From Nakamurella flava (lineage in GTDB: Bacteria > Actinomycetota > Actinomycetes > Mycobacteriales > Nakamurellaceae), in NCBI RefSeq assembly GCF_005298075.1, contig NZ_SZZH01000001.1:2108001-2172000 (forward strand): a stretch of 64,000 nt of DNA, given 5' to 3'. Below, one piece after another: positions 55,111 through 60,630 of the stretch (positions are counted from its first letter, which is position 1; every line of letters starts with the position of its first letter). A program made the position numbers and the translations under genes. The notes beneath the pieces are model-generated. The model worked only from the letters and a program-made list of their open reading frames with translations, was not told the origin of the DNA and made no database searches.

Positions 55111-58023
55111 TCAGGGGCCTGAGCGGGACGCGAAGATCGTCGAGATCTGGCTGGCCGACAGCGCGGTCGAGTAGAACGCGACGTCGGCGAGCGACCCGGC
55201 CAGGGTGTTCGACGGCGGGGCGCTGGGCCAGTTGGCGAGGGTGTCCCAGCCGACCCGCCAGTAACCGGTCCGGTTGTCGGCCGAGACGGCTGAACTTGTA
55301 GCCACCCGGGTGCCGTCGACCCACAGTGCGGTGCCGGCGGCCGTCTGGGTGGCGACCAGCAGATGCCACTGCCCGTCGTTGTATGACCGGGTGGTCTTCA
55401 GTTCGGTGAGGCCGCCGGAGGCCTTGACCCCGAACACGACCTGACCGGTGGCGGTGAGGAACAGGTGCCGGTCGGAGTTCGTGGACACGCCGGTCGTCGT
55501 GCCGGAGAAGCCGGCCACCCGCCCGCCGGTGGTGCTGGTCGTCCGCACCCAGGCCGAGATCGAGTAGACCGTCGGGTTGGTCAGGGCGACCGGCGCGGAG
55601 ACGAACGGCGTGCTGCCGGACAGCGTGACCCCCGCACTGCCGTCCCGCTGGCACGGGCCGGCCGCTCCGAAGGTGAACATCGACGGGGTCTGGTAGGTAC
55701 CGGCGCGACCGTTCCCGGAGGAGTCCGCGGCGACGCTGGAGCCGGTGGTCTGGTTGAGCCGGTAGAAGGCCCACGGCGCGGCTGCCGTGACCGCCGCCGC
55801 GCAGCTGGCGGGAATGGCTGCGGCCGTGAACATCTGGCTCACCTGGGTGGCGGTCAGGGCGGTGCCGTAGACTGCCGCGTCGGCCACCGAGCCGGCCAGG
55901 AACCGGCTGGTCGGCTGGTCCGGCCAGGAGTCGAAGTTCCCGGCTCCGACCCGCCAGTAGCCGGTGTAGTTCTGGCTCCCGGTCACGGTGTTGGACCCCA
56001 CCTGGACGCCGTCCACCCACAGCCGCATGCCGGCGCTCGACTGGCTGGCCGCCACCTGGTGCCAGGCGCCGTCGTTGTAGGACGCGTTGCTGGTCAGGGT
56101 GTTGAAGGCCCCGCCGAAGGTGCCGAACACCACCCGACCGGCGTTGTTGAGGTAGATCATGCGGTCGTAGTCGGTCGGGGTGCCGACCGAGGTGTTGCCG
56201 AAACCGATCAGCAGTCCACCTCCGGCCGTCGTCGTGCGGAACCACACCGACAGGCTGTACGTGGTCGGATTGGTGACCGCGGTGCTGGTCGACACGTATC
56301 CCGTGGTGCCGTCCAGGGTGATGCCCGTCTGGCCCGAGCAGGCCGCGGGCACCGAGTACGTGATGCCGCCCTGGTATGTCGCGGAGCGGTTGTTGCCGGA
56401 GGAGTCCAGTGCGAGCGACGGTCCCCCCTCGTCTAGGCGGTAGAACTCGAACGGCGACGCGGACCGCACGGCGGATGCGCATCCGCCGGGCGGCGCGGCC
56501 GCCGCGTACTCGGCCGCGGCGTCGCCGGGGCTCAACGCCGTTCCGTAGAACGCGGCCCCGGCCACGGTGCCGGCGAAGTAGTTCCCGGTGCCCGCCCCCC
56601 AGTTGGCGGAGAAGGCGGCGTAACCGATCCGCCAGTAGCCGGCGAAGTTCTCGGCGCCGGTCTCCCCGTCGCTCGCGTCGAGGACGCCGTCGACGTAGAT
56701 CCGTTTGCCCACGGCGGACTGGGTGGCGATGACCTGGTGCCATTGCCCGTCGTTGTACTGGCCCTGGGTGGTCAGGGTGCGGACGGCACCGGGATAGGTG
56801 CCGAACACCAGGCGGCCGCTGGTGTCCATCCAGGTGATGCGATCCATCTGGCTGCCGCCGCCGGTCCGCGCGGCCACGAGGCCGGTGAGGAAACCACCGC
56901 TGGTGGTGGTGGTCCGGAACCAGATCCCGGTGGAGTAGGTCGTCGGGTTGGCGACCTGGGTGGCGGTGGACACCCACCCGTTGCTTCCGTCCAGGGTGAC
57001 GGCTCTGCTCCCGCCCGCACACGGACCCGCCACCCCGTAGGCGACCCCGGTACCGAGCAGGTTGGTGCGATAGGTGCCGTTGCCGCCGGTACCCGACGAG
57101 TTCGCCGCCGTCGGCGGACCGTTCTCGTCGAGCCGGAAGTACTGGCCGGGTGAGCGCGCGAGGACGGCGCTGTCGCAGGTGAAATCGCTCGCCGACGCGT
57201 ACGAGTTCGTCGGCGCCGCGGTGGTCGACGACCAGGCGGCCTGTGCGTCGACCGTGGTCGTCACGGCCGCGCCGACCACGACGACGACCGCCACAGCGGC
57301 GAGGTGGCTGCTGACCGAGGTTCGCGGCGCTCGTCGCGTATAGGCCGGGGGCTCGTACGACGAGGGACGCCCGACCACCGGTCGGGCCGCGGATGGCAGA
57401 ACCCGGCCGCCACCGCCGGGCGGCGCGTGGTTCCCCGGGGTCCCACCGGGCCGTTGGCGCTCATCGGTCCGCCGCCGGTCGAGCCTGGCCAGCCAACCGA
57501 GGGCGGCGGTCATGACGACGGTCAGACCGAGGGCGGACCAACGGTTCTCAGCGAGCCACACCACGGGCGCACCGACCCACGGCACCCGCAGGACGGCCAC
57601 GCCGCGGACGGCGGACGGGTCGACCGGAGTGGAGTCGGGGTCGGCGTTCGCGTCGCCCTTGAGGATGAGCTGACCGGTATCGGTGATGTGGTCCAGCCGG
57701 TGCAGCCGGAGCCGGCCGACGTGATCGGGGTCGGCCACGAGAAGGACCTGCCCGATCTGCCAGGACCCGGGCTCGACGGGCCGGGCGACGACCACGTCGC
57801 CGGCGACGATCCGGGGTTCCATGGACCCGGTCATCACGTCGGTCGGCTGCCATCCGATCCCCGCCGGCAGGACCACCCACACCAGCAGACCGATCGGCAA
57901 CAACAGCAGCATGCGGGCCACCGTGGCCGCCAGGACGCGGACCCACTCGGTCCCCCCGGCCGGGCTCGCGGGCTCCGCACCGCCGGTGGGATGCCCTGAG
58001 CGAGCGGTCGTCAGCCCCTTCAC
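55111..58023 (-). CDS. SipW-type signal peptidase fused to a signal-peptide-like segment and three LamG modules
   Basis: 970 residues in one frame from a GTG preceded by GAAGGA. Residues 30-58 are a membrane segment, followed by the S26B signal peptidase core: TGSMEPRIVAGDVV with Ser67, LHRLDHI with His108, and KGDANADPD with the acidic residue; the second membrane helix is about 163-180. A Pro/Arg-rich linker leads to a third hydrophobic segment (240-258) ending DAQAAWSSTT, which resembles the processing site of the neighbouring TasA-like protein (SYAAFSSTT). Three LamG-like (concanavalin A-like) modules follow, starting near Cys283, 515 and 740. Each has YRLDE/YRLNQ, a WVRTT/WFRTT segment, YNDGQWH and VDG motifs. 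I infer that the enzyme half cuts its own LamG half, and the neighbour's product, for export. Confidence 0.82.
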   Translation of the reverse strand: MKGLTTARSGHPTGGAEPASPAGGTEWVRVLAATVARMLLLLPIGLLVWVVLPAGIGWQPTDVMTGSMEPRIVAGDVVVARPVEPGSWQIGQVLLVADPDHVGRLRLHRLDHITDTGQLILKGDANADPDSTPVDPSAVRGVAVLRVPWVGAPVVWLAENRWSALGLTVVMTAALGWLARLDRRRTDERQRPGGTPGNHAPPGGGGRVLPSAARPVVGRPSSYEPPAYTRRAPRTSVSSHLAAVAVVVVVGAAVTTTVDAQAAWSSTTAAPTNSYASASDFTCDSAVLARSPGQYFRLDENGPPTAANSSGTGGNGTYRTNLLGTGVAYGVAGPCAGGSRAVTLDGSNGWVSTATQVANPTTYSTGIWFRTTTTSGGFLTGLVAARTGGGSQMDRITWMDTSGRLVFGTYPGAVRTLTTQGQYNDGQWHQVIATQSAVGKRIYVDGVLDASDGETGAENFAGYWRIGYAAFSANWGAGTGNYFAGTVAGAAFYGTALSPGDAAAEYAAAAPPGGCASAVRSASPFEFYRLDEGGPSLALDSSGNNRSATYQGGITYSVPAACSGQTGITLDGTTGYVSTSTAVTNPTTYSLSVWFRTTTAGGGLLIGFGNTSVGTPTDYDRMIYLNNAGRVVFGTFGGAFNTLTSNASYNDGAWHQVAASQSSAGMRLWVDGVQVGSNTVTGSQNYTGYWRVGAGNFDSWPDQPTSRFLAGSVADAAVYGTALTATQVSQMFTAAAIPASCAAAVTAAAPWAFYRLNQTTGSSVAADSSGNGRAGTYQTPSMFTFGAAGPCQRDGSAGVTLSGSTPFVSAPVALTNPTVYSISAWVRTTSTTGGRVAGFSGTTTGVSTNSDRHLFLTATGQVVFGVKASGGLTELKTTRSYNDGQWHLLVATQTAAGTALWVDGTRVATSSAVSADNRTGYWRVGWDTLANWPSAPPSNTLAGSLADVAFYSTALSASQISTIFASRSGP

Positions 58024-58135
58024 CGTCGATCCTTCTCCTCGGTCTCCCGCTCGGCTCGGTTGACCCCCCGGGTCCACGAGCCGTGGACGTCGCTGATCGG
58101 GGCGGCCGACAGCCGCCCGACCACCGACGTCGTCA

Positions 58136-58753
58136 TCAGGTGTTCTGGGCCTCCCAGGTGAAACCGATGGAGGCGGTTCCGCCCTGGACCGTGTTGGGGG
58201 CCAACGGGTCGACGGTGTAGGTGAACTGGTAGGTCTTGCTCTCCGCGGCCGCACCGGTGGGCGCCCAGGTGGCGGCGGCCGCGGTCGGCGTCCCGCTCGC
58301 GAAGGCGGTCGCGGAGCTGCCGAAGGCGGCCAGGGTGCCGGAGAAGACGCTGCTGTTGGTGGCCTGCGGGGTGAAGCCGGTGCAACCGCCGCCGAAGGAG
58401 CCGCCCGTGCCCTGGACGATCGAGAGGTTGATGCTGCCGGCGAGGTTGTTCGTGGTGGCCGGGCTGGTGCCGTAGAGCTTGACCTGGCTCGGGAGGGATC
58501 CGCTGGACGTCACGACGATGCACTTGGTGCCGGTGGAGCCGGGCTTGAGGTTGGTGGCCGTGAACAAGGCCGTGTTGGCGTCGTCGTCGGAGAGCGCGAC
58601 GGTGCCGGCGCTCCAGTTGTTCGTCGGATTCGACGTGGTGGAACTGAACGCGGCGTACGAGGACTGGGCGACCACGACGGCGCTCAGGCCCAACGCCGCG
58701 GGGATGGTGGCCCACTTGAGCCAGCGGGACACACGGGGGGACGGACGGGACAT
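58136..58753 (-). CDS. TasA/camelysin-like exported protein with SipW-dependent signal peptide
   Basis: 205 residues; ATG preceded by GGAG at seven bases. A basic N-terminus and hydrophobic stretch (ATIPAALGLSAVVVAQSSYA) lead to AAFSSTTSNPTNNWSAG, the hallmark after cleavage by SipW-type peptidases in TasA, CalY and relatives. The rest is Ser/Thr/Gly-rich beta sequence: KPGSTGTKCIVVTSSGSLP, INLSIVQGTGGSFGGGC and the closing GGTASIGFTWEAQNT. Two cysteines may pair outside the cell. It is probably an extracellular fibre or matrix subunit. It lies 112 bases upstream of the signal peptidase-LamG gene on the same strand, so the two likely form one unit. Confidence 0.8.
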   Translation of the reverse strand: MSRPSPRVSRWLKWATIPAALGLSAVVVAQSSYAAFSSTTSNPTNNWSAGTVALSDDDANTALFTATNLKPGSTGTKCIVVTSSGSLPSQVKLYGTSPATTNNLAGSINLSIVQGTGGSFGGGCTGFTPQATNSSVFSGTLAAFGSSATAFASGTPTAAAATWAPTGAAAESKTYQFTYTVDPLAPNTVQGGTASIGFTWEAQNT

Positions 58754-59143: not shown

Positions 59144-60466
59144 TCAGCCGGCGACGTACTCCGCGAACGGCAGCTGGAAGTCGCCGTATCCGTCCCACCA
59201 CTCCAGGGCCGGACCGCTGGTGTTGCTGATGATGACCGGGTCACCGGGCAGCGCGTTGTCGTAGAACCACTTGCCCCAGTCGGTCGACACGTTGACGCAA
59301 CCGTGGGACACGTTCTCCACCCCCTGGGAGTCGACCGACCACGGCGCGGCATGCACGAACTCACCGGAGTCGGAGATCCGGCTGGCCCAATCGACCTTCG
59401 TGCGGTATGCCCCCGCCCCGGTCAGCCCCCAGGTGCTGGAATCCATGATCTTGGACTCGTACTTCTGCTTGACCACATGGATGCCGTTGTAGGTGGGGTA
59501 CTTGTCCCGGCCCATCGACACCGGCACGAGCTGCGTCAGCTGGTCGTCGACGTAGATACCCATCATGTGGTTGTTGTTGTCGATGTCGGCGACGAACTTC
59601 CGCCCGACGGTGAACGACCGGGGAGTGTCGGACCCGACGAACATCCCGCCGCCGAGGTCCCGGCCGTACAGGTCGGTGGTCACCGTCACCTGGGTCCCGG
59701 ACGTCCAGAAGCTCTCCGGGCGCCAGCGCAGCTCGGTGTCGTTGACCCAGCGGAACCCGCCGTTCTGAGCCGGGGTCGAGGTGACGGTGATGGCCTTCTC
59801 GACGCCTTCGTGATTGGTCACCGGCTGATCGAAGTAGAAGGCGATCGGCTGGGCCACCCCGACGGTCATGCCGTCCGACGGGAACCCGGTGACCTCCACC
59901 CGGCCCCCCGGCCGGACCGTCCGGAAGGTCGAGGTCGCGGTGGCCGGTGCCCCAGTGGCGTTGGTCGCCTCGGCGGTGAGGGTGTAATCGGTGTCGTAGG
60001 CCAGGTCGGTGGTGTTCCACCATTCCCGCTGGTCCGCCGACACCGCCCCCACGATCTCGGTGCCGTCGGCGGCGACGAGCCGCACGGTGCCCAGCGTCCC
60101 GTCGGCCACGGCGACGGTGACCGGATCGGCCGGGCTGAGTGCCGGGGTGCCCGACGCCGGGCTGACGGTGAGCACCGCCGGCGCGGCGGGCGCCGAGCTC
60201 ACGGTGACGGTGGGCGCCGGGGCCGACGACGACGGGGCGGCGGGGACGGCGACGGCGGCCGACGATCCGGTCAACGCCTGCTCCTGCCCGGCGGGCGACA
60301 CGGTCGCGGCGATGGCCCCCAGGGTCGACGACCCGGAACCGCTGCACCCCGTCACGGCGGCGAGCAGTACACCGGCGGCCAGGGCGACGGTGGTCACCCG
60401 GCGCCAGGGCCGGCGGGCCGGAGCGGGTCCGCTGATGGTGTGATCGGTGCCGCCACGGTTCGGCAT
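59144..60466 (-). CDS. L,D-transpeptidase lipoprotein (LdtMt2-like)
   Basis: 440 residues from the ATG at 60466; the larger open frame upstream is a shadow. The signal peptide ends in a lipobox LAAVTGC, so the protein is lipid-anchored outside the membrane. A Ser/Ala/Pro-rich spacer is followed by two Ig-like modules (VLTVSPASGTPALSPADPV onward and GGRVEVTGFPSDGMTVGVA onward), then the YkuD catalytic domain: VGRKFVADIDNNNHMMGIYV and the active site HAAPW and SHGCVNVS with Cys390. It forms 3-3 cross-links in peptidoglycan, which give resistance to many beta-lactams. Architecture and C-terminal extension match mycobacterial Ldts. Confidence 0.93.
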   Translation of the reverse strand: MPNRGGTDHTISGPAPARRPWRRVTTVALAAGVLLAAVTGCSGSGSSTLGAIAATVSPAGQEQALTGSSAAVAVPAAPSSSAPAPTVTVSSAPAAPAVLTVSPASGTPALSPADPVTVAVADGTLGTVRLVAADGTEIVGAVSADQREWWNTTDLAYDTDYTLTAEATNATGAPATATSTFRTVRPGGRVEVTGFPSDGMTVGVAQPIAFYFDQPVTNHEGVEKAITVTSTPAQNGGFRWVNDTELRWRPESFWTSGTQVTVTTDLYGRDLGGGMFVGSDTPRSFTVGRKFVADIDNNNHMMGIYVDDQLTQLVPVSMGRDKYPTYNGIHVVKQKYESKIMDSSTWGLTGAGAYRTKVDWASRISDSGEFVHAAPWSVDSQGVENVSHGCVNVSTDWGKWFYDNALPGDPVIISNTSGPALEWWDGYGDFQLPFAEYVAG

Positions 60467-60630
60467 GATGAGCCCCCCACGTCGTGAGGCACCCCCCAGC
60501 GCCTCGTCCGACCAGTGTGCGGTACGCCAGTCGGGTGACGCCCTCCTCGCGCGCGAGTTCGCAACTTCGTGTCCGGACTGTGACTGACGGTTGCGGTGCG
60601 ACCGTGCCGTCCGGAGCGCCCGCCGAGATG

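Follow-up and report, generated by a model that had tools for sequence, protein, structure and literature searches.

Closest described systems

Most work on TasA-type fibres has concerned Bacillus and archaea. The tapA-sipW-tasA genes of Bacillus subtilis bring together an ER-type signal peptidase, a TasA-type subunit and a third secreted protein, TapA, which has an Ig domain and a TasA-like donor strand. Residues 28-38 of TasA are donated when subunits join, the main contacts being F29, I32 and F39 (PMC9674648); TapA begins with AFHDI where TasA has AFNDI, and donates this strand, thereby initiating filaments (PMC10151520). In Bacillus cereus (sipW-tasA / calY / capP), SipW processes camelysin-type subunits which need an accessory protein (PMC13082335); the genes are separate there, and CapP, which is not a LamG protein, acts differently from TapA. 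At archaeal SipW / TasA loci (such as that on a Halobellus plasmid, L173), the genes for signal peptidase I, a member of the TasA family and a SipW-dependent protein adjoin, but all three are separate, without any fusion. A functional analogy is offered by the tip adhesins of chaperone-usher pili (Fim, Pap), donor-strand fibres with a lectin-type end subunit.

The locus of Nakamurella flava analysed here has the same kinds of components as that of B. subtilis, but the peptidase carries the third protein as a C-terminal fusion, leaving two genes instead of three, and the exported part (the "cargo") consists of LamG or, in relatives, other modular domains instead of an Ig domain. Unlike chaperone-usher pili, it includes neither usher nor chaperone and is not homologous to them as a system. 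The enzyme and fibre families are thus known; the literature searched mentioned neither the enzyme-cargo fusion nor a TasA-like strand on a cargo nor the spread in actinobacteria, and it likewise gave no description of SipW fusions, of SipW/camelysin in actinobacteria or of TasA in Curtobacterium (closed-access papers and preprints were outside its scope).

The gene pair

The window is a stretch of 64,000 nucleotides (contig NZ_SZZH01000001.1, positions 2,108,001 to 2,172,000), in which the following features were assigned:

58136..58753, minus strand: TasA-like fibre subunit (P0001), 205 aa; from PF12389 and AlphaFold model
58652..58753, minus strand: its SipW-type signal peptide, predicted cut between SYA and AF, after Ala34 (cut inferred)
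58604..58651, minus strand: its N-terminal donor-strand segment, AFSSTTSNPTNNWSAG (inferred; aligns with TasA residues 28-38, PMC9674648)
58024..58135, minus strand: intergenic segment with strong RNA hairpins right behind the TasA-like stop codon; MFE -62.8 kcal/mol, z -3.46
55111..58023, minus strand: fusion protein (P0002), 970 aa, GTG start; from open frame, RBS and GC3
57484..57954, minus strand: SipW-type signal peptidase with two membrane helices, residues 24-180; from TIGR02228, catalytic residues and pLDDT about 90
57316..57483, minus strand: Arg-rich disordered linker, residues 181-236, predicted cytoplasmic; pLDDT mostly <50
57238..57315, minus strand: third hydrophobic segment, residues 237-262, interpreted as an internal SipW-type signal peptide; predicted cut between AQA and AW, after Ala262
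57190..57237, minus strand: putative TasA-like donor-strand segment opening the cargo, residues 263-278, AWSSTTAAPTNSYASA; from TasA-only profile
56491..57180, minus strand: LamG domain 1, about residues 282-511; Laminin_G_3, pLDDT mostly 85-98
55819..56478, minus strand: LamG domain 2, about residues 516-735; Laminin_G_3, best stretch 571-729
55114..55806, minus strand: LamG domain 3, about residues 740-970; Laminin_G_3, without C-terminal sorting signal or membrane anchor

The original prediction, made from the letters alone, had proposed an uninterrupted frame holding a complete SipW-type peptidase, a third hydrophobic segment and three LamG modules. The frame was verified in the window: it comprises 970 codons from the GTG at 58023, which is preceded by GAGGAGAAGG, to the stop at 55111. 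GC3 stays at 0.80-1.00 throughout, the linker included, and the frame therefore bears no sign of a frameshift between peptidase and cargo. The TasA-like gene lies 112 nt upstream on the same strand. Scans for sigma-70 promoters and intrinsic terminators returned none. The hairpins of the intergenic segment were compared over 87 loci by folding 90 nt after the stop, the gap being counted from the TasA-like stop to the peptidase domain: z fell below -2 in 28 of the 49 loci with gaps of at least 150 nt and in 3 of the 38 with shorter ones. Such hairpins may allow many fibre subunits to be made per peptidase fusion. The product of the next gene upstream (window 59144-60500, minus strand) is an L,D-transpeptidase with a Big_10 Ig domain, a cell-wall neighbour.

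Signal peptidase and cargo

As the original prediction had anticipated, domain searches of the two halves returned TIGR02228 (below its cut-off) in one and Laminin_G_3 in the other. TIGR02228 matches residues 43-160 (2.4e-12, 47 bits), under the 51.85-bit cut-off; in a genome-wide search the same peptidase scores 51.3 bits, still below it. The NF046067 SipW model gives 30.5 bits against a cut-off of 190 bits, and phmmer found no match of the peptidase half in the PDB. What defines an ER-type signal peptidase (a Ser-His dyad, two Asp and two membrane helices) is met: Ser67, His108 and the two Asp of the GD box, Asp124 and Asp130, are all present and are kept in every fused relative with complete sequence, and the AlphaFold model places membrane helices at residues 24-55 and 162-180. 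To judge from these matches, the enzyme is a divergent SipW / ER-type relative and not the Bacillus SipW equivalog. No other ER-type (Ser-His) signal peptidase was found in the genome, which leaves it as the sole candidate to process both the TasA-like protein and itself; a second TIGR02228 match was rejected as another SipW because Lys replaces His, which makes it a P-type peptidase. The linker that follows has a median length of 67 aa and a net charge of +4 across the family.

The third hydrophobic segment was modelled as a helix (residues 237-255), and the three LamG modules were recovered as three Laminin_G_3 stretches (2.1e-46) which pass the PF13385 gathering score with 158 bits. None of the 93 cargos inspected for a C-terminal anchor has one; three cargos have LPLSG strings close to their end, but these are internal and were dismissed as sorting signals. 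Retention at the cell would thus need fibre docking or glycan binding. Several very large LamG repeat proteins (frames of 1322-1731 aa) are encoded about 120 kb from the fusion (G000:C1:2033824-2044649).

The TasA-like partner

The adjacent protein had been taken for TasA-like, and this held: its 26.6 bits on PF12389 (camelysin) exceed the gathering score of 22.5. The NF046066 TasA equivalog model gives only 7e-4 and 19.1 bits against a cut-off of 450, so that by family models the partner is TasA-like, not TasA itself. Its AlphaFold model (pLDDT 80.6) has the TasA fibre 8aur_A as best PDB match (E 1.5e-6, probability 1.00, TM about 0.5), followed by weaker matches which are mostly donor-strand pilins (FimF, FimG, CfaB, an archaeal filament). 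The predicted fold thus meets the criterion for a TasA fibre subunit; fibre formation itself is inferred. Ser32, Ala35 and Phe36 are invariant in 46 relatives, and the monomer model leaves residues 27-42, at the predicted cut and just behind it, disordered, as is expected for a donor strand without acceptor.

The partner is single copy, no other TasA-like protein of this type being found in the genome. A second SipW-dependent signal protein (TIGR04088) is encoded elsewhere (G000:C5, L050:6350-7015), and behind it a 901-aa protein starting ...AHAYFTSGGDG (G000:C5, L050:7051-9756). No signal peptidase gene was recognised beside this pair; the fused peptidase may process it in trans.

The junction

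In the fusion, the hydrophobic segment closes with AQA-AWSSTT, and Ala262 is conserved at 90% or more in the family alignment. When fused proteins are aligned on the junction, Ala is found at the predicted P1 in 81%, an aromatic residue at P2' (+2) in about 90%, and Pro at -6, as in the c-regions of signal peptides, in 45%. In the Curtobacterium junction AVAAPW, a cut one residue earlier is equally possible. Aromatic residues at P2' hinder LepB; TasA carries Phe there and is cut by SipW (PMC10269814). Four relatives encode the cargo in a gene of its own immediately behind the peptidase (L034, L137, L141, L181; the L141 genome is incomplete), and the N-terminus of each such cargo has the same hydrophobic segment, motif and strand; those of L034 and L137 are LamG proteins. 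Fused and split forms being interchangeable, the third segment fits a signal peptide, not an anchor. We conclude that it is a SipW-type signal peptide, its cleavage being inferred.

The original prediction had likened this junction to the cleavage context of the partner. The likeness extends beyond the cut: AFSSTTSNPTNNWSAG of the partner and AWSSTTAAPTNSYASA of the cargo both have aromatic residues at mature positions 2 and 13, and residues 256-279 of the fusion are predicted to be disordered (AlphaFold model, 46 relatives). A profile was trained on TasA-like partners only and used to rank all 16-mers of each fused protein. The junction was the top 16-mer in 76 of 93 fusions, and residues 263-278 are the best match within the whole Nakamurella protein. 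It still came first in 62/93 when the two residues next to the cut were left out, and in 57/93 with mature residues 5-16 alone (column-permuted mean 7.9, maximum 28); permuting columns in the three versions gave means of 8-12 and maxima of 57 (full), 30 (without the two residues) and 28 (residues 5-16). Over the family, the likeness of junction and partner is well above chance, although some members (L032, L139) show only a modest one. Junction strands also resemble their cognate partner strands more than non-cognate ones (permutation p 0.0005). Co-evolution of the strands within the main class was considered and discarded, the signal being gone once peptidase divergence was controlled (partial Mantel r about 0, p 0.49).

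A second class of fusions (L035, L036, L037, L039, L041, L161, L166) has additional membrane helices, five in all, a TasA-like partner type of its own and, between peptidase and junction, a further extracellular insert. Its strand motif is different and is common to partner (AFTAAITNTTNTAASG) and junction (AFAGTVTNTTNTAASA).

A likeness that continues past the cleavage site, over what would be the donor strand of TasA, suggests docking of the cargo on the fibre. It is the more telling part of the resemblance and was absent from the original prediction. With a TasA-like N-terminal strand after a SipW-type cut, the cargo meets one criterion for TapA, on sequence likeness only; it fails that of a V-set Ig domain and homology, as it is built of LamG and no TapA model matches the fusion. 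The cargo may work like TapA, yet it is not a TapA.

Spread and origin

The same fusion, together with its TasA-like partner, was sought in other genomes. Homology scans found fused frames that continue for 150 residues or more beyond the peptidase at 102 distinct loci, mostly in Actinomycetota (the weak or truncated L043, L148 and L153 included); 94 of them have a TasA-like gene directly upstream on the same strand. Among the remaining eight, three have a partner recognisable by motif (L035, L037, L041), two are cut by contig ends (L038, L109) and in three no partner gene was found upstream. Tail lengths are bimodal, stand-alone SipW proteins stopping within about 100 residues of the peptidase. 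Fused members occur in Microbacteriaceae (many Curtobacterium and Frigoribacterium), Micrococcaceae, Intrasporangiaceae, Propionibacteriaceae, Cellulomonadaceae, Pseudonocardiaceae, Nakamurella, Nitriliruptoraceae and additional classes, as well as in one MAG labelled Acidobacteria; a complete Arthrobacter plasmid record carries the fusion, too. Because it recurs across Actinomycetota, the fusion of a peptidase to a surface protein with a partner-mimicking junction is confirmed as a design that has been conserved, rather than a peculiarity of one locus. The last module varies: it is LamG in 27 of 46, in others Ig-like, fn3, ice-binding and more, and in L038 RCC1-like repeats (identified by eye).

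On a peptidase tree of 107 sequences, about 12 changes between fused and split forms are counted, at least four of them forced by well supported branches. A single origin, with all fusions in one clade, was rejected (AU p 0.0007); the design thus arose, or was split, more than once. At two loci (L142, L152) a single stand-alone SipW is surrounded by two or three TasA-like proteins, recalling the two-camelysin arrangement of B. cereus.

Proposed mechanism and alternatives

The architecture, its conservation, the operon, the likeness of the motifs and the TasA-like predicted fold are established by the analysis. The reading we favour, with some reserve, is that of a two-gene operon in which the fused peptidase frees its own cargo as well as the TasA-like protein, and the cargo docks by its TasA-like strand; cleavage, the identity of the cutting enzyme, docking and ligand are inferred. 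The first gene would encode a TasA-type fibre subunit and the second a membrane polyprotein of peptidase, internal signal peptide and LamG adhesin. The linker would remain intracellular and the third hydrophobic segment would restart Sec export; the peptidase would then cut after Ala262, in cis or on a neighbouring copy, and after Ala34 in the TasA-like precursor. Once released, the LamG protein might place its N-terminal strand in the groove of a TasA-like subunit, thereby starting, capping or anchoring the fibre, as TapA does in B. subtilis, its LamG part binding a glycan or a neighbouring surface. Cutting within or between molecules remains unproven, for sequence cannot distinguish cis from trans.

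Part of the junction motif could be peptidase recognition. It is even conceivable, though unlikely, that the motif is nothing else, that the cleaved LamG protein is an ordinary exported lectin which does not dock on a fibre, and that the fusion merely couples export of two unrelated surface proteins. One peptidase acting on two substrates would be expected to leave a shared cleavage context, and junction and partner of the main class do not co-vary beyond phylogeny. However, the likeness lasts through mature residues 5-16, far beyond the P3-P4' zone that is known to affect the processing of TasA by LepB (PMC10269814), partnership with a TasA-like gene is conserved, and the cargos have no cell-wall anchor. 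That the third segment is never cleaved, being a plain membrane anchor which tethers the LamG part and holds the peptidase near the cell wall or its substrates, appears quite improbable: its 19-residue helix is long enough to span the membrane and direct proof of cleavage is lacking, but a short hydrophobic core, a c-region, a near-invariant P1 Ala and a P2' aromatic serve no role in an anchor, and split relatives have this segment as the signal peptide at the start of an independently encoded cargo. An artefact of annotation or assembly, two genes joined by a sequencing frameshift, might be thought of since relatives with split genes exist (L034, L137); a frameshift or chimaera is ruled out, for practical purposes, by the continuous codon bias and the recurrence of the fusion in about 100 independently sequenced loci.

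Returning to the two-gene operon with a docking cargo, a more specific version can be put forward only tentatively. In such an enzyme-substrate polyprotein, one cut in cis per peptidase would give one fibre initiator with the first donor strand, tying the start of a fibre one-to-one to a membrane peptidase; the design would have arisen or been rearranged more than once, with interchangeable adhesin modules.

Significance

The operon seems to represent a widespread, hitherto undescribed means of building a cell-surface protein matrix. It indicates a common actinobacterial version of TasA-type fibres, present in plant-associated Curtobacterium and Frigoribacterium as well as in Arthrobacter and Nakamurella. 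Public annotation misses it, as the partner is called a hypothetical protein and the fusion is named for its last domain; complete plasmid records list a hypothetical protein, then a glycosyl hydrolase or Ig-like domain protein. The operon is a test case for the ability of a signal peptidase to act on a substrate that is part of its own chain, and provides material for testing how donor-strand fibres start without an usher, the variable end modules representing a natural set of adhesins on one scaffold.
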